Shown one piece after another: positions 3,624 through 17,919 of a stretch of 25,606 nucleotides of DNA (its first letter is position 1; each line of letters starts with the position of its first letter). Under the pieces are notes generated by a model. That model had not been told where the DNA came from and ran no database searches. It saw only the letters and a program-made list of their open reading frames with translations. This DNA comes from an uncultured Asticcacaulis sp. (GTDB lineage Bacteria; Pseudomonadota; Alphaproteobacteria; Caulobacterales; Caulobacteraceae). The stretch lies in NCBI GenBank assembly GCA_946482045.1, contig CAMLPZ010000022.1:1-25606 (forward strand), read 5' to 3'. A program made the translations under genes and the position numbers.

Positions 3624-4453
3624 GCCTGCGCGACCTTGCCGCCCAGAAAGGGCCGCTGATCATGGGCGTGGTCAATGTCACGCCCGACAGCTTCTCCGAC
3701 GGCGGCAAGTGGTTCGGCTTTCAGGCAGCGTTGGATCACGCCCGGCGACTGATCGCCGATGGGGCGGATGTGCTCGACATTGGCGGAGAGTCGACCCGTC
3801 CCGGTGCGCAACCCGTGACCTTGGGTGACGAGATCGATCGCGTCGTGCCGCTGATCCAGGCCGTGGCCAATGAGTGGGACGGGCCGATCAGCATCGATTC
3901 CCTGAAACCCGAAGTGGCGGAAGAGGCTTTCAAGGCGGGGGCCTGCGTGTGGAACGATGTCACGGCGCTGACGCACAGTTCCGAATCTCTGGAAACGGCG
4001 GCGCGCCTCGACGGCGATCTCATCCTGATGCATATGCGCGGCGAGCCACGCACCATGCAGTCTAATCCCTGGTACGAAGATGTGGTCGCCGAGGTCGAGT
4101 CCTATCTGCTGGAGCGCGCCGAAGCCGCGATCCGGGCCGGCGTGGCGCGCGACCGCATCTGGATCGATCCGGGTATAGGCTTCGGCAAGACCCTCGATCA
4201 CAATCTTGCGCTGATCGCCGCAACGAAGCGCCTGGCCGGGCATGGCTTCCCGCTTTTGATGGCGGCGTCGCGCAAACGCTTCATCGCGGCGCTGGAGGAG
4301 CGGGAAGGGGCCGTGGCCACGGATGCCGATCATCGACTTGGGGCGTCCATCGCCGTGCACCTCCACGCCATCGCCAATGGCGCACAAATGGTCCGCGTTC
4401 ACGACGTCGCTGAGATGAAGCAGGCGCTCAGGGTCTGGCGGGCATTGCGCTAA
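3620..4453 (+). CDS. folP: Dihydropteroate synthase FolP
   Basis: FolP joins p-aminobenzoate to 6-hydroxymethyl-dihydropterin diphosphate to make dihydropteroate, and is the sulfonamide target. All family signatures appear in order in 277 residues: MGVVNVTPDSFSDGG with the diphosphate-binding Asn, DIGGESTRPGA, SIDSLKPEVAEEAF, NDVTAL, MHMRGEPRTMQ, IDPGIGFGKTLDHN and the terminal AASRKRF. The ATG overlaps the upstream stop (ATGA). Its own stop overlaps the stop of a convergent gene by 4 bp, leaving no room for a terminator. Nothing suggests a resistance-type insertion in the loop regions, though that needs alignment. Confidence 0.97.
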   Translation: MSLRDLAAQKGPLIMGVVNVTPDSFSDGGKWFGFQAALDHARRLIADGADVLDIGGESTRPGAQPVTLGDEIDRVVPLIQAVANEWDGPISIDSLKPEVAEEAFKAGACVWNDVTALTHSSESLETAARLDGDLILMHMRGEPRTMQSNPWYEDVVAEVESYLLERAEAAIRAGVARDRIWIDPGIGFGKTLDHNLALIAATKRLAGHGFPLLMAASRKRFIAALEEREGAVATDADHRLGASIAVHLHAIANGAQMVRVHDVAEMKQALRVWRALR

Positions 4454-10990: not shown

Positions 10991-11902
10991 TCAGGCCGGG
11001 GTCATCGCCGCATTGGCATTGACCATCGCCTTCTGCAGCTTCTCGAAGGCGCGGACCTCGATCTGACGGACGCGTTCACGCGACACGCCAAAGCGCTCGG
11101 CCAGGTCTTCCAGGGTCGTCGGATTGTCCTTCAGGCGACGCTCAGTCAGGATTTCGCGCTCACGGGCGTTCAACTCGCCCATGGCCGCCTGCAGCAGTTC
11201 CATGCGGATATCATGCTCTTCGGCGTCGGCCAGCACGGTTTCCTGAGACTGCTGCTTGTCGTCGACCAGCCAGTCCTGCCATTCCGCTTCGCCCTCTGAT
11301 GCGCGTAGCGGCGCGTTCAGCGACGAGTCGGGCGACGACATACGGCGGTTCATATTGACGACGTCCTGTTCGGACACGCCCAGCTTGGTGGCGATCTGCT
11401 CGACCTGGTCGTGGCGCAGGTCGCCTTCTTCCAGGGCCGAAATTTCAGACTTCACCTTGCGCAGGTTGAAGAACAGCTTCTTTTGCGCGGCGGTCGTGCC
11501 CATCTTGACCAGCGACCAGGACCGCAGGACGTATTCCTGGATCGAGGCCTTGATCCACCACATGGCATAGGTCGCCAGGCGGAAGCCGCGGTCCGGATCG
11601 AACTTCTTGACCGCTTGCATCAGGCCGACATTGCCTTCTGATATCACTTCGCCGACCGGCAGGCCATAGCCGCGATAACCCATGGCGATCTTGGCGACCA
11701 GACGCAGGTGAGACGTCACCAGCCTGTGCGCGGCCTTGGGGTCCTGATGTTCCTGCCAGCGTTTGGCCAGCATGAATTCCTCGTCCTTGGCGAGCATGGG
11801 AAACTTGCGGATTTCCGACAGATAGCGGTTCAGGCCGCCGTCCGGCGACGGGGCCGGCATGGCCGAAGACGAAAGGTTGCTTACAGCTAAAGAAGTGCTC
11901 AT
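10991..11902 (-). CDS. rpoH: Heat-shock RNA polymerase sigma factor RpoH (sigma-32)
   Basis: A 303-residue sigma-70-family factor. Region 1.2 gives LNRYLSEIRKFPMLAKDEE. Region 2 gives SHLRLVAKIAMGYRGYGLP, EGNVGLMQAVKKFDP and the -10-binding RLATYAMWWIKASIQEY. The RpoH box QKKLFFNLRKVK follows, and region 4 has LTERRLKDNPTTLEDLAERF with the VSRERVRQIE helix-turn-helix. The RpoH box separates it from RpoD and the stationary-phase factors. The start at 11902 fits the known Caulobacter N-terminus best. In-frame ATGs at 11977 (GAAGG 9 nt before) and 12043 would add 25 or 47 residues of no recognisable domain. It lies downstream of rluD, an arrangement I associate with alphaproteobacteria. Confidence 0.95.
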   Translation of the reverse strand: MSTSLAVSNLSSSAMPAPSPDGGLNRYLSEIRKFPMLAKDEEFMLAKRWQEHQDPKAAHRLVTSHLRLVAKIAMGYRGYGLPVGEVISEGNVGLMQAVKKFDPDRGFRLATYAMWWIKASIQEYVLRSWSLVKMGTTAAQKKLFFNLRKVKSEISALEEGDLRHDQVEQIATKLGVSEQDVVNMNRRMSSPDSSLNAPLRASEGEAEWQDWLVDDKQQSQETVLADAEEHDIRMELLQAAMGELNAREREILTERRLKDNPTTLEDLAERFGVSRERVRQIEVRAFEKLQKAMVNANAAMTPA

Positions 11903-12084
11903 CTGCGTTTCGCTTTCTTGTCGGGATTCCGCTTCGCCCTGCCCGGGGCGATCGGAAAAAGGAGACGTGTCGGTCATGAGCAGGTGCCTTCGACTGCGAG
12001 GGGGAGCGCAGGAGGCGACCATGCTCATGGCCGGCAACAGCACTCGATGTGGGTACGCGTTTCAAAAATAAAAGAGGGATAAAC

Positions 12085-12267: not shown

Positions 12268-13278
12268 TCAGAAGTCTGTCCGCAATATGTCGACAAGCGT
12301 CTGCATGTCCTCCGGCAAGGCGGCCTTGAATTTCAACTTCTCACCGGTAACGGGATGCACGAAACCCAGGACGGCGGCGTGCAGGGCCTGGCGGTCGAAG
12401 CCGATGTCGGTGAGCAGGGCCTGGATGTCGCGTGAAGGCGCGCCTGAGCCATAGACGGGGTCGCCCAGGCAAGGGCAGCCGATATGCGCCATGTGGACGC
12501 GGATCTGGTGCGTACGACCGGTTTCCAGGCGGCACCTGATCAGCGAAGCTACAGGTTTGCCGTGGCCGTAGATCTCTTGAACTTCATAGTGTGTGACGGC
12601 TTCGCGGCCACCACCACCGCGTAGGACGGCCATCTTCTTGCGGTCGCCATTCGACCGGCCGATGCGCGTTGTGATCGTGTCTTCGACTTTCCGCGGCGTG
12701 CCGCGGACAACGGTACGGTATTCGCGGTCGATATCATGCTTGGCGAATAGGGCCGACAGGCCGCGATGCGCGGCGTCCGACTTGGCGGCGACCATGACAC
12801 CCGACGTATCCTTGTCGAGCCGGTGGACGATACCGGGGCGCAGCACGCCGCCGATACCGGCCAGGCTATCGCCGCAGTGATGGAGCAGGGCATTGACCAG
12901 GGTGCCATCGGGTATGCCGGCGCCCGGGTGGACCGACATGCCGGCGGCCTTGTTGATGACGATAAGGTGCGCATCCTCATAGAGGATATCGAGTGGGATG
13001 TCCTGCGCCACAGGTACGGCGTCGATGGGGGCGGGGACGAAGAGGTTATAGATGCCTGGCTTGGTCTTATGCTTGCCGTCGGCGACGACCGCGTCGCCAA
13101 AGCTCAGCCGGCCTTCGGCGATCAGGGCCTGGAGCCGCGCGCGCGACAGTTCTGGAAAGTGCGCGGTCAGGACGCGGTCCAGCCGGTCGCCGGCCTCATC
13201 CGCCGCCACTTCGGCGGTCAACCATTCGCCGTTGCCTTCGGCGTCGTCGATATCGATATCGTCTTCGGGTTCATGCAT
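12268..13278 (-). CDS. rluD: RluD-type 23S rRNA pseudouridine synthase
   Basis: A 336-residue enzyme of the RluA/RluD family that isomerises uridines in 23S rRNA (helix 69 for RluD proper). An acidic N-terminal segment precedes an S4 RNA-binding domain (GDRLDRVLTAHFPELSRARL, about 30-49, through GKHKTKPG). The catalytic domain follows, with VHRLDKDTSGVMVAAKS carrying the nucleophile Asp155, then REYRTVV, LETGRTHQIRVHMAHIG and a VHPVTGEKLKF end. RluD is preferred over RluA/RluC because of the S4 domain and length, but which uridine is modified is inference. The ATG at 13278 has an AGG-type ribosome site; the open frame 5' of it lacks family sequence. It lies upstream of rpoH. Confidence 0.9.
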   Translation of the reverse strand: MHEPEDDIDIDDAEGNGEWLTAEVAADEAGDRLDRVLTAHFPELSRARLQALIAEGRLSFGDAVVADGKHKTKPGIYNLFVPAPIDAVPVAQDIPLDILYEDAHLIVINKAAGMSVHPGAGIPDGTLVNALLHHCGDSLAGIGGVLRPGIVHRLDKDTSGVMVAAKSDAAHRGLSALFAKHDIDREYRTVVRGTPRKVEDTITTRIGRSNGDRKKMAVLRGGGGREAVTHYEVQEIYGHGKPVASLIRCRLETGRTHQIRVHMAHIGCPCLGDPVYGSGAPSRDIQALLTDIGFDRQALHAAVLGFVHPVTGEKLKFKAALPEDMQTLVDILRTDF

Positions 13279-13354
13279 CGCTGCCTGATAAGCAATAAAG
13301 CGATGAAAGCCAAGGCTAACAACTCGCAACCGATAAGTTCGCCGGAGACAACGT

Positions 13355-13398
13355 GCAGCCTGACAGGAGCAAAGCGGCGGCAAGGCCTGTCAGGCTGC
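13355..13398 (-). repeat. Perfect 13-bp inverted repeat between exbD1 and rluD
   Basis: GCAGCCTGACAGG (13355-13367) and CCTGTCAGGCTGC (13386-13398) pair perfectly around an 18-nt loop, 10 bp past the exbD1 stop and about 77 bp before the rluD start. There is no T-tract on either strand, so it is not a standard intrinsic terminator. Each arm contains the self-complementary CCTG-N-CAGG element, so it could also be two operator half sites. An mRNA-stabilising or processing hairpin is possible. Confidence 0.7.
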
Positions 13399-13407
13399 GC
13401 GAGAGCA

Positions 13408-13836
13408 TTACTCTGTATCCTCATTGATCAGGGCGACGCGGGTATAGCCCGATTGCTTAAGTGAATTCAGAACGCTGAGGAAGTCCTGATACGCGATATC
13501 TGCTCCGCCACGAACCAGAACGCGTTCGCTGTGCGGGGCCTGTGAGCGCAGGGCGGCGCGCAGATCGGCGTCCATCCGGGCGAGGGACGTCTTTTGACCG
13601 GCGATATAGAGCTCATCCGGCCCCATGACGGAGATGAAAACCGGGTCCTTGCCGGCCTGGCCGCCGTCCGCGCGCGGCATATCGATCTTGATCGCGGTCG
13701 TAGCCGTTGGGATCGACACCATGAAGATGATCAAGAGCACCAGCATGATATCGACGAACGGCGTGACATTGATCTCCGAGTTTTGCGTGACGGTATATCG
13801 GCTTACGCCGCCACTTCCACTGAGCCTTGCGCCCAT
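13408..13836 (-). CDS. exbD: ExbD/TolR-family biopolymer transporter, copy 1
   Basis: A 142-residue inner-membrane protein with a short cytoplasmic N-terminus (YTVTQNSEINVTPFVD), one transmembrane segment (about 27-47, VDIMLVLLIIFMVSIP) and a periplasmic domain ending in SGYTRVALINEDTE. Asp29 at the membrane entrance is the conserved proton-path residue of ExbD/TolR. ExbD works with ExbB to energise TonB, but no exbB or tonB is in the window. It is the paralog of the protein at 16332-16766: N-terminus, membrane helix and C-terminus are near-identical in pattern, while its linker is shorter. GGAAAGG upstream provides a ribosome site. A stem-loop 28-46 nt upstream of the start is shared with copy 2. 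Confidence 0.93.
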   Translation of the reverse strand: MGARLSGSGGVSRYTVTQNSEINVTPFVDIMLVLLIIFMVSIPTATTAIKIDMPRADGGQAGKDPVFISVMGPDELYIAGQKTSLARMDADLRAALRSQAPHSERVLVRGGADIAYQDFLSVLNSLKQSGYTRVALINEDTE

Positions 13837-13863
13837 TGGGTGTTTCCTTTCCTGATAAAGGGC

Positions 13864-13882
13864 TGCCGCGTCGGGTGCGGCA
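13864..13882 (-). promoter_or_regulatory. Conserved leader stem-loop upstream of exbD copy 1
   Basis: TGCCGC (13864-13869) pairs with GCGGCA (13877-13882) around the loop GTCGGGT; in the minus-strand RNA the loop reads ACCCGAC. It ends 27 nt before the exbD ATG. The second exbD has the same loop, stem length and distance, with a different stem sequence that still pairs. Confidence 0.65.
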
Positions 13883-13934
13883 AAGGCAGCATGACACCGT
13901 TATTAGCTTTGCGCAATTGAGCGCACTAAATCTA

Positions 13935-13973
13935 TTGACATGGGCGTCAAAAGTGATATCACTTTGATATAAT
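13935..13973 (+). promoter_or_regulatory. Promoter with 16-bp palindromic operator of the SPFH/RHH operon
   Basis: TTGACA (13935-13940) is a consensus -35 box, with TATCAC at 13957-13962 as a possible -10 (16-bp spacing). AAAGTGATATCACTTT (13950-13965) is a perfect palindrome over that -10 box. TGATAT recurs 11 bp on (13954 and 13965), running into an extended -10-like TGATATAAT (13965-13973). A repressor on the palindrome would block transcription; the ribbon-helix-helix protein of the same operon is the obvious candidate (inference). Confidence 0.6.
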
Positions 13974-13987
13974 TTCCGGAGGGCAAA

Positions 13988-14182
13988 ATGACTGAAGATG
14001 GCAAGCCGTTGAGCGCTTTGGTGGCGCAGGGCTGGGAGATCGTCAACTATTCCAGCTCAAGCGACACGAGCGGATACATTACGCAGAACATCCTGCTCCG
14101 CCGGCAGAAACAGCACCGCATTTTGAGCATCCGCCCCAAGATGATGGGGCAGGGCTATGTGGTAAAGGAAATGGACGTTTAA
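13988..14182 (+). CDS. Small conserved-type protein (DUF4177-like GWEIV motif)
   Basis: A 64-residue cytoplasmic protein without signal or membrane segment. The LVAQGWEIVNY motif followed by a Ser/Thr-rich turn and NILLRRQKQHRIL resembles the DUF4177 type of very small beta-rich proteins (GWELV ... LLRR); this link is by eye and uncertain. A strong ribosome site CGGAGGG lies at 13977-13983. It is first in an operon: the SPFH gene begins 1 bp after its stop. The promoter directly upstream holds a 16-bp palindrome. Function unknown; being co-translated with the SPFH protein suggests a partner or a modulator. Confidence 0.75.
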   Translation: MTEDGKPLSALVAQGWEIVNYSSSSDTSGYITQNILLRRQKQHRILSIRPKMMGQGYVVKEMDV

Positions 14183-14183
14183 G

Positions 14184-15077
14184 ATGAGCGATGTTGCAAT
14201 GAACGATAAAACCATCAACCGGACGCTGGAGACCGGGGGCGTCGGAAGTAGCGGCGGCTTCTGGCTGCTGATATTCCTTATGGCCACTGTGATGGCCGTC
14301 GCGGCGCCATTCCTGCTGGGTAAGCCAGGCGTGCTGATTACCATCCCGATGGCTATTTTTGCCCTGCTGGTGGCGTGTGGTTTCTACGCTATTCAGCCCA
14401 ATCAGGCCGTCGCCGTCATTCTGTTTGGCAATTACAAGGGAACGGACCGGACGACTGGCCTGCGGTGGGTGCCGTTCTGGTATGAGCGCAAAAAGGTCTC
14501 CCTGCGCGTCCGCAATGTCACTAGCGAAGCCCTGAAGGTCAACGACCAACGCGGCAACCCGATCGAAATCGCCGCCAACGTCGTCTGGCGCGTCCAGGAC
14601 ACGGCGCGCGCCCTGTTCGATGTCGATGACTACGCTGCCTTCATCAATATCCAGATCGAGACGGCGCTGCGCGAAACGGCGCGGCAATACGCCTATGATC
14701 ACGGTAACGAGGGCGAGCCAACCTTGCGCGATGACGCCGAAATCGTCGGCGAGCGTCTTAAGCGCGATTTGCAGGCCCGGGCCGACGTGGCCGGCATTGC
14801 CATCGATGAAACCCATTTGATGCACCTGGCCTATGCACCGGAAATTGCCGGCTCGATGCTGAAACGGCAACAGGCCGAAGCCGTCATCGCCGCCCGCCAG
14901 AAGATCGTCGCCGGTGCGGTCGGTATGGTCGAGCAGGCCCTGGAGCAGCTATCGAGCCGCGGCGTTGTCGATCTCGATGAAGAGCGTAAGGCCGCCATGG
15001 TGTCGAACCTGCTGGTCGTGCTGTGCGCCGACCGCGAGGCTCAGCCGGTCGTCAACACCGGCACGCTGTACGGCTAA
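14184..15077 (+). CDS. SPFH/Band 7 domain membrane protein
   Basis: A 297-residue protein with two hydrophobic segments near the N-terminus (about 25-47 and 50-70, a likely hairpin or two-pass anchor). The SPFH fold follows: [62 protein letters not shown] and [13 protein letters not shown]. The C-terminal part ([21 protein letters not shown]) is the Ala/Glu-rich helix through which SPFH proteins oligomerise. Members (HflK/C, flotillin, stomatin) form membrane scaffolds and often control proteases; the client here is unknown. The start is 1 bp after the previous stop, with AAAGGA at 14164-14169 somewhat distant; Met6 is an alternative. The stop overlaps the next ATG. Confidence 0.88.
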
Positions 15078-15268
15078 TGGCGTCGCCGGGCAAGAAGTCC
15101 TTCCTGCTCCGGGTGCCTCCCGAACTGATGGAGGCGGTCGAGCGACTGGCCGCCTCCGAACTGCGCTCGACCAACTCGCAACTCGAGGTGCTGATCCGCG
15201 AAGCCTTGGCCAAGCGTGGTATCAGGATGGATATCGTCAGGCGTGGGCGCGAAGATGACGAGGACTGA
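15077..15268 (+). CDS. Arc-type ribbon-helix-helix DNA-binding protein
   Basis: A 63-residue protein with the MetJ/Arc/CopG layout: a basic N-terminus, the beta-strand KSFLLRVPPELM, then helix A (EAVERLAASE) and helix B (TNSQLEVLIREALAKRG), with a charged tail ending in REDDED. Such proteins bind DNA as dimers through the paired beta-strands. The start at 15077 is fixed by the TAATG overlap with the SPFH stop, which implies co-translation. SPFH followed by an Arc-like gene is an arrangement I recall from other alphaproteobacteria but cannot verify here. Auto-repression at the palindrome in the operon promoter is a reasonable guess; a non-regulatory role is also possible. Confidence 0.85.
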   Translation: MASPGKKSFLLRVPPELMEAVERLAASELRSTNSQLEVLIREALAKRGIRMDIVRRGREDDED

Positions 15269-15347
15269 ACCGTTAACGCGCCGATCACGAAATAATCACG
15301 TACTTGTGATTTTGCCGTGAAAATGACGTGATCTCAGCGCGACATGT

Positions 15348-15375
15348 CGAGGCAGGCCGATTGGGGCCTGCCTCG
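15348..15375 (+). terminator. 11-bp hairpin at the end of the SPFH/RHH operon
   Basis: CGAGGCAGGCC (15348-15358) and GGCCTGCCTCG (15365-15375) form a perfect stem with a 6-nt loop. No T-run follows (TCAAATGG), so termination is uncertain. It lies 80 bp after the RHH stop and 19 bp before the ATG of the next gene (15394), so it could also act as a leader structure there. Confidence 0.45.
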
Positions 15376-15413
15376 TCAAATGGGAGAGAGACCATGTCGC
15401 GTCGGTATTCCGT

Positions 15414-16268
15414 GTGTGTTGCCCTGGCTATATTGTGTGTCTGGCGGCCTGTTCGCCAAAAGCGGCCGAGGAGGTCGCCTTACAAGAGGAGGCCGCGCCG
15501 GCGGTCGAGGCCGTTACCGATACGGCGGGACGCCCCGCCCGCGTCGACCCGGCCAGCCTGCCGCAACTGGCCTACGACTACCGGTTCGACCTGAGCGCAC
15601 CTGACAAACAGCTGAACGCTATGGTGGAGGGGCATCAGGAAGCCTGTTCGGTCGCAGGCCCGGCATCTTGCCAAATACTGTCGCTCGATACAGATCGCGG
15701 CCAGGTTGGTATCGAGGAGCGTCATACGCTTGTCCTTCGCGCGACGCCGCAATGGATTGGCCTGTTCCGCAAAACCCTTGCCAACGAACTGAAGGCCATC
15801 GGAGGCAAGATCGAACGCCAGACGATCGCCACGGACGACCTCAGCCTGTCGATCATCGACCAGGAGGCGCATATCAATAATCAGGTGGCGCTGCGCGACA
15901 ATCTCCAGGCGACGTTGCGCACGCACAAGGGCAAGATGTCCGAGGTCATTGACCTGAAGCAGGAACTGGCTTCGATCCAGTCCGAGATCGACGCGGCGCG
16001 CACGGCCGTCGCCACCATGAAGAAGCGCGTGGCCATGTCGAAACTGACCCTGACCTATACAACGGGAACGGCGGCGGCCTCGCGCGGCACCTTGGCGCCC
16101 CTGACGGCGGCTGTCAGCGGTATCGGTCCGAACTTCGTGTCGGTTCTGACGGTAATGATCACCGTATTCAGCTATTTGGCGCCGCTGGGGCTGGTGATCG
16201 TGCCGCTCGTCTGGTGGCTGCGCCGCTTGCGCAAACACGCTAAGGCGCGGACGGCCGAGTTGACCTGA
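15414..16268 (+). CDS. DUF4349 domain lipoprotein, signal peptide apparently frameshifted
   Basis: The in-frame product (GTG at 15414) has the DUF4349 layout. After an Ala/Glu-rich stretch come IEERHTLVLRATPQWI and LANELKAIGGKIERQTIATDDLS. A coiled-coil helical pair follows (LRDNLQATLRTHKGKMSEVIDLKQELASI, quoted in parts: about residues 160-190), then SKLTLTYTT and a C-terminal membrane segment (about 245-270) with a basic tail. The likely true start is ATG 15394, preceded by GGGAGAGAG, giving MSRRYSVCVALAIL in another frame. The lipobox CLAAC is read only in the GTG frame. One extra GT in the tract 15435-15440 explains the break. It follows the RHH operon on the same strand and converges on exbD2. 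Confidence 0.78.
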   Translation: MCCPGYIVCLAACSPKAAEEVALQEEAAPAVEAVTDTAGRPARVDPASLPQLAYDYRFDLSAPDKQLNAMVEGHQEACSVAGPASCQILSLDTDRGQVGIEERHTLVLRATPQWIGLFRKTLANELKAIGGKIERQTIATDDLSLSIIDQEAHINNQVALRDNLQATLRTHKGKMSEVIDLKQELASIQSEIDAARTAVATMKKRVAMSKLTLTYTTGTAAASRGTLAPLTAAVSGIGPNFVSVLTVMITVFSYLAPLGLVIVPLVWWLRRLRKHAKARTAELT

Positions 16269-16274
16269 CTGACA

Positions 16275-16307
16275 ACAAAAACCCCGGCAGGATAACCTGC
16301 CGGGGTT
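16275..16307 (-). terminator. Rho-independent terminator of exbD copy 2
   Basis: AACCCCGGCAGG (16280-16291) and CCTGCCGGGGTT (16296-16307) make a 12-bp stem with a 4-nt loop. On the minus strand it is followed by a TTTTTGTTG-like tail. It lies 25 bp past the exbD2 stop and 12 bp past the convergent DUF4349 stop, and may act on both strands. Confidence 0.9.
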
Positions 16308-16331
16308 CTGAATTCCGTAGTCCGGAGATAC

Positions 16332-16766
16332 TTAGTCAAGATCTTCGTTGATCAGGCCGACCTTGGTGAAGCCGTTTTGCTGGAGCGTGTTCAGCACCTT
16401 CACGAAATCGCCGTATTCGATGTTCTTGTCGCCGCGGATCAGGACACGCTCTTCATAAGGCGTCGGCGATTGCAAAGCGGCCAGGACGGCGTCCGGCAGT
16501 TGTTCGAGGGCAACCTTGGTGGGGCCGACATAGATGTCTTCCGGGCCCATGACCGAAATGAAGATCGGATCCTTCTTCTTTTCCGCTGTGGGGGGCGCCT
16601 TCGCCGGCGGCAGGTCGAGCTTGATCGACACGGTCGCGGTCGGGATGGACACCATGAAGATGATGAGGAGCACGAGCATGACGTCGACGAACGGCGTCAC
16701 GTTGATGTCCGAATTCTGCTGAACGGTATAACGACCGCCACCACCACCGCCGAGCTTAGCGCCCAT
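16332..16766 (-). CDS. exbD: ExbD/TolR-family biopolymer transporter, copy 2
   Basis: A 144-residue inner-membrane protein and close paralog of the one at 13408-13836. A Gly-rich N-terminus leads to YTVQQNSDINVTPFVDVMLV with the conserved Asp28, one membrane helix, then a longer Pro/Ala/Lys linker (PPAKAPPTAEKKKDP). The periplasmic domain includes FISVMGPEDIYV and ERVLIRGDKNIEYGDF and ends NGFTKVGLINEDLD. The start at 16766 has AGGGAG about 7 nt upstream on the minus strand. No exbB is adjacent, so it presumably works with an ExbB encoded elsewhere. A candidate promoter (TTGTGT-17-CATAAT) and a leader stem-loop shared with copy 1 lie upstream. Confidence 0.94.
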   Translation of the reverse strand: MGAKLGGGGGGRYTVQQNSDINVTPFVDVMLVLLIIFMVSIPTATVSIKLDLPPAKAPPTAEKKKDPIFISVMGPEDIYVGPTKVALEQLPDAVLAALQSPTPYEERVLIRGDKNIEYGDFVKVLNTLQQNGFTKVGLINEDLD

Positions 16767-16793
16767 ATGTCAACTCCCTCTGAGACGCCTAAG

Positions 16794-16812
16794 GCCTGCG
16801 TCGGGTGCAGGC
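16794..16812 (-). promoter_or_regulatory. Conserved leader stem-loop upstream of exbD copy 2
   Basis: GCCTGC (16794-16799) pairs with GCAGGC (16807-16812) around GTCGGGT, the same 7-nt loop as upstream of copy 1. It lies 28-46 nt upstream of the start codon, the identical distance. If the promoter at 16824-16852 is right, the hairpin is almost at the 5' end of the mRNA. Confidence 0.65.
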
Positions 16813-16823
16813 GGCGTTAAGAA

Positions 16824-16852
16824 ATTATGCCATCGGCCATAGGGACACACAA
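16824..16852 (-). promoter_or_regulatory. Candidate promoter of exbD copy 2
   Basis: On the minus strand TTGTGT (16847-16852) and CATAAT (16824-16829) are 17 bp apart. The expected start site is near 16817, giving a leader of about 50 nt that begins just before the conserved hairpin. The rest of the gap up to 16984 is AT-richer and shows no gene. Confidence 0.45.
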
Positions 16853-16984
16853 CAAATCGCATCCTTACAAAACCGTTAGGAACGATTTAGGCCAAATCCC
16901 CGCCCGTTGTAAAGGCTAAAGCCGGTGAAAAGCAGCCATAAGGGATAGAGATTAAGATATTTCAAAAAGCCGTCGTGAAACGAC

Positions 16985-17047: not shown

Positions 17048-17689
17048 CTACTTCTGCGCCAGCTTGAGGAATCGGTCCTGAAGGGCAGCGTCAGTCTTGA
17101 AGACGCCTGTAAAGCGCGTGGTGACTGTCGTGACGTGCTTGTGGTGGACGCCGCGCGTCGACATGCACTGGTGTTCGGCATCGATCAGGACGGCCACGCC
17201 CAGCGGCGCCAGCGACGTTTCGATGGCGTCGGCGATCTGCTTCGTCATCGTTTCCTGCGTCTGGAGACGCTTGGCGAAAATTTCCACGACGCGGGCGATC
17301 TTGGAGATGCCGACCACCTTGTCGGTCGGCATATAGGCGACGTACGCCTTGCCGAGGAAAGGCGCCATGTGGTGTTCGCAGTGTGATTCGACATCGATCT
17401 CGCGCAGCAGGACCATGTCGTCATATCCCTGGACATCCTCGAAGGTTCGCGACAGTTCCTTGGCCGGATCGGCCGTATAGCCCTGGAACCACTCGTCATA
17501 GGCTTCGACGACGCGCTTGGGCGTATCGAGCAGGCCTTCGCGGTCCGGATTGTCGCCCGCCCAGGCCAGAAGCGTGCGCACGGCGGCCATGGCTTCTTCC
17601 TTGCTGGGGCGGTTGGTGAAGGTGGTGATGCTCTTCGGACGCGAGCTGTTGAGCAGATTTTCTGCCGAGACCGGATCGAGGCTGTCCAT
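17048..17689 (-). CDS. folE: GTP cyclohydrolase I FolE
   Basis: FolE turns GTP into 7,8-dihydroneopterin triphosphate, the entry to folate (and queuosine) synthesis; it is a zinc-dependent cytoplasmic decamer. The 213-residue protein shows [20 protein letters not shown], the zinc and active-site motif [37 protein letters not shown] and [11 protein letters not shown] with the second zinc cysteine, so this is the canonical type IA enzyme. The start at 17689 gives a normal N-terminus (MDSLDPVS); an ATG at 17764 would add 25 Arg-rich residues that include a hairpin sequence and is not favoured. It is divergent from cysS across 230 bp. Confidence 0.96.
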
Positions 17690-17723
17690 ATTCAATCTAT
17701 AATCCCCTGAGGGCCGAGTAGCG

Positions 17724-17741
17724 CCGGAACGACGGTTCCGG
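17724..17741 (-). promoter_or_regulatory. 7-bp leader hairpin upstream of folE
   Basis: CCGGAAC (17724-17730) and GTTCCGG (17735-17741) form a perfect stem with a 4-nt loop, 35-52 bp upstream of the folE start. It could be a leader hairpin or an operator dyad. The remainder of the folE-cysS gap (17742-17919) shows nothing else I can name. Confidence 0.4.
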
Positions 17742-17919
17742 AAATGACGCGTGGCATCCCTCATGTACTAACAGTCATGCCCCAGGCTTTTGCCGGAAGC
17801 TGACAGCATTTGCATACGCCCGGCGCAATTTGGATTATCGCGCGTAAACATAAACGTGGTGCAAAGACCTGACGGCGTCTATATGGGACGATACCCGGTC
17901 ATTACAACCAAATTTCCAG

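Follow-up and report, generated by a model that had tools for sequence, protein, structure and literature searches.

Do the two exbD genes found in one stretch of Caulobacteraceae DNA share a leader element that is recognised through a fixed loop, or do they carry hairpins in which the pairing is retained and the letters are free to change? The question is raised by 25,606 nucleotides (nt) from an uncultured Asticcacaulis sp. (contig CAMLPZ010000022.1), hereafter called the window, meaning the whole stretch that was analysed. In the window, both exbD paralogs are preceded by a hairpin with the same seven-letter loop, ACCCGAC. We consider, with a probability of about one half, that the exbD leader hairpin is a sequence-independent 5′-proximal hairpin, possibly a stabiliser of the mRNA 5′ end. 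The preliminary description of this DNA had offered a 5′ stabiliser among its readings, in agreement with the one favoured here; its other proposals, based on recognition of the loop, have fared less well.

Both window hairpins are on the minus strand. The exbD1 gene (16332..16766, minus strand; ExbD/TolR, PF02472, from Pfam) follows GCCTGC-ACCCGAC-GCAGGC (16812-16794), and exbD2 (13408..13836, minus strand; assigned by Pfam to the same family) follows TGCCGC-ACCCGAC-GCGGCA (13882-13864). From the sequence and the predicted fold, each has a stem of six base pairs (bp), or seven in exbD2 when a G-U pair is included, and exactly 27 nt separate each hairpin from its ATG (at 16766 for exbD1 and 13836 for exbD2). 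The preliminary description, which gave both genes a 6-bp stem closing ACCCGAC at 28-46 nt upstream of the ATG, is correct letter for letter. It is also correct, on re-reading of the sequence, that three of the six pairs differ between the two copies and that all three changes are compensated (G-C/T-A, C-G/G-C and T-A/C-G for exbD1/exbD2, minus strand). The local hairpins are present in the predicted folds of both 121-nt stretches, but each stretch taken whole is no more stable than its shuffles (z of 0.72 and -0.16). Six ACCCGAC sites occur in the window, counting both strands, and the four outside the exbD leaders have stems of 0-2 bp. An intrinsic terminator or attenuator was rejected, the letters directly 3′ of the hairpin being CTTAGG (exbD1) or GCCCTT (exbD2), with no U run. 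A pseudoknot between the loop and the Shine-Dalgarno (SD) sequence was dropped, as it has at most three pairs by eye. No family of Rfam release 15 reached its gathering score, either for the window or for 14 related loci.

Across relatives, the loop is rarely retained. Among 103 non-identical exbD1-type leaders, the window's own included, ACCCGAC is a hairpin loop in two, those of the window and of Asticcacaulis solisilvae; a further leader, L099, has these letters at another place in its 120 nt. The loci were taken from the matches listed across 199 genomes and from 40 further stretches picked by hand. They yielded 161 exbD starts having 120 nt upstream and lying near the match, of which 128 had distinct last 60 nt; a motif rule, together with hand choices made after the sequences had been seen, marked 25 of these as second exbD copies, and they were excluded. 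L058 (start placed 4 nt late) and L137 (possibly non-orthologous) were retained among the 103, and L097, a row on the wrong strand, was excluded from later alignments. Control leaders (n = 223) were taken upstream of first-ATG starts of long open reading frames (ORFs). Twenty of them lie in the exbD1 neighbourhood, and the main counts were repeated with the other 203; the full set, including these 20, stands behind the one-mismatch, energy, shuffle, shared-stretch, unpaired-probability and A-C/G-T figures. Because the leaders are related to each other, p-values are too small. In an early reading of upstream stretches, which covered 54 of 62 loci, ACCCGAC was found in one stretch, that of A. 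solisilvae. The test set beforehand was whether orthologous exbD leaders have the loop, and nearly all are without it (53 of 54 stretches and 101 of 103 leaders). Recognition via an invariant loop, as first proposed, is not supported for a loop that so few leaders carry.

The nearest locus found is that of A. solisilvae, whose exbD1 is 96% identical to the window's. In the exbD1 intergenic region, 261 of 279 aligned bases are identical between the two, so that conservation of the exbD1 hairpin in this species is uninformative. A. solisilvae has the ACCCGAC hairpin before both paralogs. Before exbD2, the 19-nt hairpin is kept and 38 extra nt come after it, which puts its end at 65 nt from the ATG in place of 27 nt. 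The same position before both paralogs, stressed in the preliminary description, is thus true of the window but not of A. solisilvae. The 38-nt insertion (L064:1517-1554) has complementary ends, CACAGA/TCTGTG. In four other Asticcacaulis genomes, the hairpins of the exbD2 leaders (L002, L003, L008 and L010) differ in loop and sequence (L008 by eye), and the tandem exbD copies of L004-L006 have no hairpin of this kind by eye.

What recurs in many relatives is a hairpin at this place. Of the 103 exbD1 leaders, 47 have a perfect stem of 6 bp or more (loop of 3-9 nt, at most one G-U pair) that ends at -26..-16, compared with 26 of the 203 controls; for stems of 5 bp or more, the numbers are 65 of 103 and 52 of 203. 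With all 223 controls, the control counts become 27 and 55. For this excess in position, the Fisher p is below 1e-9, a value inflated by the relatedness of the leaders. When up to one mismatch is allowed and at least five Watson-Crick pairs are required, the counts are 81/103 vs. 97/223. Stems of at least 6 bp ending at -28..-14 are present in 19 of 20 leaders of group P1, 14 of 27 of P2, 9 of 17 of X and 4 of 7 of C. A score threshold reached by 71% of exbD1 leaders is reached by 31% of their shuffles (controls, 38% vs. 28%). The folding energy points the same way. In all six groups (n = 22, 10, 7, 17, 20, and 27), the energy of -50..-15 is below that of shuffles (mean z of -1.81, -0.83, -1.82, -1.30, -1.74, and -0.77, respectively) and below that of -100..-65 in the same leaders (-0.89, -0.25, -0.86, 0.33, -0.47, and -0.28), the mean z of the 223 controls being -0.26. 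The lowest unpaired probability of exbD1 leaders falls at -24..-19.

Loop length ranges from 3 to 9 nt, and loops and arm sequences differ widely, even within one group. By comparison of aligned relatives, the letters of stem and loop drift while the pairing stays. Every cell is paired in alignment A2 (six distinct rows), where two pairs have changed on both sides, and in alignment A3 (six rows), where one pair has. In these two alignments, only two changes are one-sided, each giving U-G; slid versions of A2, A3, and a further alignment, A4, pair worse in each case. On few sequences, this covariation supports a putative RNA structure. Of the RNA-level element first proposed for the exbD leader, the hairpin with its compensatory changes is supported, and the loop-based recognition is not.

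The surroundings of the hairpin suggest where it may lie on the transcript. The sequence CTTTAC occurs at -120..-41 in 83 of 103 exbD1 leaders vs. 0 of 203 controls. The longer pattern CTTTAC-N16-18-GC(C/G)A has 46 hits in 62 loci, 45 of them upstream of exbD1: 41 at most 500 nt upstream of position 4001 (the exbD1 start in most loci) and four in loci whose flanks are shorter, at 79-85 nt before exbD1, the last hit being elsewhere (L009). In whole genomes, CTTTAC-N14-18-GCCAATGG is found once each in nine of ten, beside the exbD1 match every time, and not at all in the tenth. The CTTTAC box would serve as the promoter of exbD1 or as an operator overlying that promoter. In the window's own copy (16885-16914, minus strand), CTAAAT replaces the second half. 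Read directly, this copy holds TTTACA (16908..16913, minus strand), a candidate -35 of exbD1 in the box that is common upstream of exbD1 in relatives, 17 nt before CTAAAT (16885..16890, minus strand), a candidate -10. A candidate second -10, CATAAT (16824..16829, minus strand), is located 11 nt before the hairpin. On the other side, SD-like sequences are read directly as AGGGAG for exbD1 (16774..16779, minus strand) and AAGGA for exbD2 (13845..13849, minus strand); AGGGA is found within the last 22 nt of 56/103 exbD1 leaders vs. 11/203 controls.

In the 84 of 103 leaders having a TTTAC-type box, the last such box is at a median of 46 nt before the hairpin. The available part of a Caulobacter start-site paper places the 5′ base of RpoD motifs 34-37 nt before the transcription start (PMC4287350); exbD is not named in its main text. 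Taken as the -35, the box would, from its spacing and this published offset, leave roughly 10 nt between the 5′ end and the start of the stem. With CATAAT as the -10, the 5′ end in the window would be a few nt before the stem. These two geometries, together with the drifting letters, fit a stem-loop that protects the 5′ end.

We infer that the hairpins form part of the mRNA, lie near its 5′ end, and have a stabilising role. On this view, a short stem-loop of each exbD mRNA would sit between promoter and SD sequence, close to the 5′ end. Selection would retain the presence and place of the base pairing rather than the letters of stem or loop, and the stem may hinder attack on the 5′ end (pyrophosphate removal, RNase E entry), giving a stable exbD mRNA. 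The ompA-type 5′ stem-loop of Escherichia coli hinders such attack and requires no fixed loop sequence. Like it, exbD leaders have a short stem-loop in the 5′ untranslated region (UTR) upstream of a good SD sequence. Unlike it, the exbD hairpin occurs in a different gene and bacterial class and is known here from sequence, whereas a half-life effect and a 5′ end belong to the ompA type. More generally, the available parts of mRNA-decay reviews describe 5′ hairpins as able to impede RppH and to stabilise mRNAs of bacteria. The kind of element is already known, as mRNA-stabilising 5′ stem-loops, and the exbD instance matches no Rfam family at the gathering score.

A related body of work concerns small RNA (sRNA) control of the mRNAs of TonB-dependent receptors in Caulobacter (CrfA, SisA-D, RusT, ChvR), which belongs to the same TonB uptake physiology and usually targets the leader region. 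These systems differ from the exbD case in that the available parts of the CrfA and RusT papers name no exbD target, and in that the exbD loop is not conserved. The same parts describe no exbD leader element, CCCGAC was not found as a word in the main text of the CrfA paper, and the terms sought are absent from an iron-response paper. The available parts of the literature on exbD leaders or UTRs of Caulobacter and Alphaproteobacteria held no description of an exbD leader hairpin. If the 5′-proximal reading is true, the leader of exbD in Caulobacteraceae is short and consists of a box, a hairpin, and a strong SD sequence; the hairpin shape is often kept and its letters drift. Such leaders would be a natural series for asking to what extent mRNA lifetime in alphaproteobacteria is set by a 5′ hairpin alone. 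They are also a warning: a pair of compensated hairpins with an identical loop, both in one window, resembled a loop-recognised element until the orthologs were read.

Several observations weigh against a sequence-independent 5′-proximal hairpin. The hairpin feature varies from strong to weak between groups, and by the strict measure the window's own group is among the weaker: stems of at least 6 bp at -28..-14 are present in only 6 of 22 leaders of group A (Asticcacaulis-type) and 2 of 10 of group B, and perfect stems of at least 5 bp in only 9 of 22 and 2 of 10, respectively. Taken singly, only 25% of exbD1 leaders reach p < 0.05 against shuffles (controls, 8%). The covariation is matched by 11 of 500 shuffles for A2 and by 82 of 500 for A3, and in A4, two of whose six rows are misaligned, 81% of cells pair. 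The promoter is uncertain, because the -10 part of the box is non-canonical in most groups; with TTTACA-N17-CTAAAT as the promoter, about 65 nt would separate the window hairpin from the 5′ end. In Bacillus subtilis, a stem-loop too near the SD sequence reduced mRNA stability, according to the available part of an mRNA-decay review, and only 3-8 nt lie between hairpin and SD-like sequence in 65 of the 103 exbD1 leaders. Finally, a third perfect ACCCGAC hairpin of A. solisilvae (L151:978-996) lies 32 nt before an ORF downstream of another; from their sequences, we take these ORFs to be GH88/105-like and kduI-like, respectively.

This third copy, like the hairpins before both paralogs of A. solisilvae, would be expected if the ACCCGAC loop were bound by a protein or small RNA coupling both exbD genes, an explanation that we hold to be improbable. 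Also on its side is the window pair itself, in which the exbD1 and exbD2 leaders have a common 11-mer in the same register. A common stretch of at least 11 nt occurs in 8 of 6180 pairs of an exbD1 leader and a control leader, in none of the eight in the same register, and exbD1/exbD2 leader pairs in nine other genomes share only 6-8 nt. The match is therefore unusual for one pair of leaders. In A. solisilvae, a list of C-closed and part of the G-closed ACCCGAC patterns comprises 66 sites (34 + 11 + 21). Stems of 6 bp stand at three of them (exbD1, exbD2, and the GH88/105-like ORF) and a 5-bp stem at a fourth (C1:23085); permutation of the arms over the listed sites, with the arms of the three kept in, gave a mean of 0.71 perfect stems, and at least three in 161 of 5000 trials. 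Set against this are the other 101 exbD1-type leaders and the exbD2 hairpins of the four other Asticcacaulis genomes, all without an ACCCGAC loop, as well as the 65-nt spacing of the A. solisilvae exbD2 hairpin. In addition, ACCCGAC is absent from the 80-nt leaders of 11 other GH88/105-like hits, three of them 83-88% identical. The third copy is too thin to carry a regulon. It is conceivable, at very long odds, that in the A. solisilvae lineage the ACCCGAC hairpins 27-65 nt before starts define a small post-transcriptional regulon of recent assembly (exbD1, exbD2, and the GH88/105-like pectin-degradation gene), built on an older leader hairpin with a free loop, in which one loop-binding partner would couple TonB energisation to the use of plant polymers. 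As to origin, a small mobile hairpin is not supported, three perfect copies having been seen. The identical loop is likeliest, from these sequences, a feature of one lineage (the window and A. solisilvae), arisen through copying or coincidence.

Coincidence on a larger scale, with G+C-rich leaders forming hairpins anyway and the loop shared by chance, seems to us a doubtful account of the whole. On its side, in 800 kb of A. solisilvae, 231 of 672 leaders have a stem of at least 6 bp in -75..-10, and the 121-nt stretches of the window, as said above, do not outfold their shuffles. The 11-mer GCACCCGACGC is not rare, having six to ten sites in each of five Asticcacaulis-type genomes (nine in A. 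solisilvae; 8, 7, 10, and 6 in the four others), and among the nine of A. solisilvae a 6-bp stem is found at the two exbD sites only. One loop of at least 5 nt recurs among the 231 leaders. On both strands of the same 800 kb there are 722 perfect hairpins with 7-nt loops, 624 loops being seen once each, and ACCCGAC is counted once by the strict rule. Such a background explains neither the position-specific excess over control leaders nor the lower energy than in the neighbouring upstream stretch in six of six groups, nor the compensatory changes. Somewhat less unlikely, though still tentative, is a translational insulator or standby structure, in which the hairpin keeps the SD sequence open or aids ribosome loading. 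Indeed, 65 of the 103 hairpins, as noted, end 3-8 nt before an SD-like sequence, and exbD1 leaders exceed controls in mean unpaired probability at -18..-4. However, when the hairpin was shuffled in 102 leaders, predicted SD exposure was unchanged (0.599 intact vs. 0.587; intact higher in 55 of 102; p = 0.55), and this independence speaks against an insulator of the ribosome-binding site. Inverted repeats beside promoters are frequently operators, and the arms might instead be a DNA site for a dimeric regulator, which we regard as hardly probable. An A-C mismatch is less tolerable than G-U in an RNA helix, and A-C mismatches do occur in exbD1 stems (5 A-C vs. 13 G-T; controls, 11 vs. 11), making the RNA-type excess weak. 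Against such an operator, the arms differ widely even within a group and the loop varies from 3 to 9 nt, which is ill-suited to a fixed protein footprint, and the one-sided changes of the two clean alignments, as described above, are all to U-G.

Other features of the locus concern the second exbD copies and the neighbouring genes. An inverted repeat, GCTTTACA-N8-TGTAA(A/G)GC, is found upstream of the tandem second exbD in L004, L005, L006, and L076-L080, and its CTTTACA half is common to the exbD1 box. A palindrome, GTAATATNTTAC, stands upstream of the second exbD in L012, L031, L038, L043, L044, L049, L052, L053, and L054 and is probably a regulator site. In the window, gene families are from Pfam and gene names are presumed. 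On the minus strand, exbD1 lies downstream of folE (GTP cyclohydrolase I, 17048-17764), and exbD2 is followed by an rluD-like pseudouridine synthase (12268-13383) and a sigma-70-family factor (10991-12043), which we take to be rpoH. Between the two exbD genes, the plus strand encodes an SPFH protein (14184-15077), a small ribbon-helix-helix protein (15080-15262), and a DUF4349 protein (15414-16268). A hairpin resembling an intrinsic terminator, CCCCGGCAGG-TTAT-CCTGCCGGGG followed by a T run, is located 3′ of exbD1 (16277-16307, minus strand). A 16-bp palindrome, AAAGTGATATCACTTT, lies at 13950-13965, between exbD2 and the divergent SPFH operon; it is perhaps an operator for the ribbon-helix-helix protein, and it is intact or nearly intact upstream of exbD2 in L003, L008, and L010.

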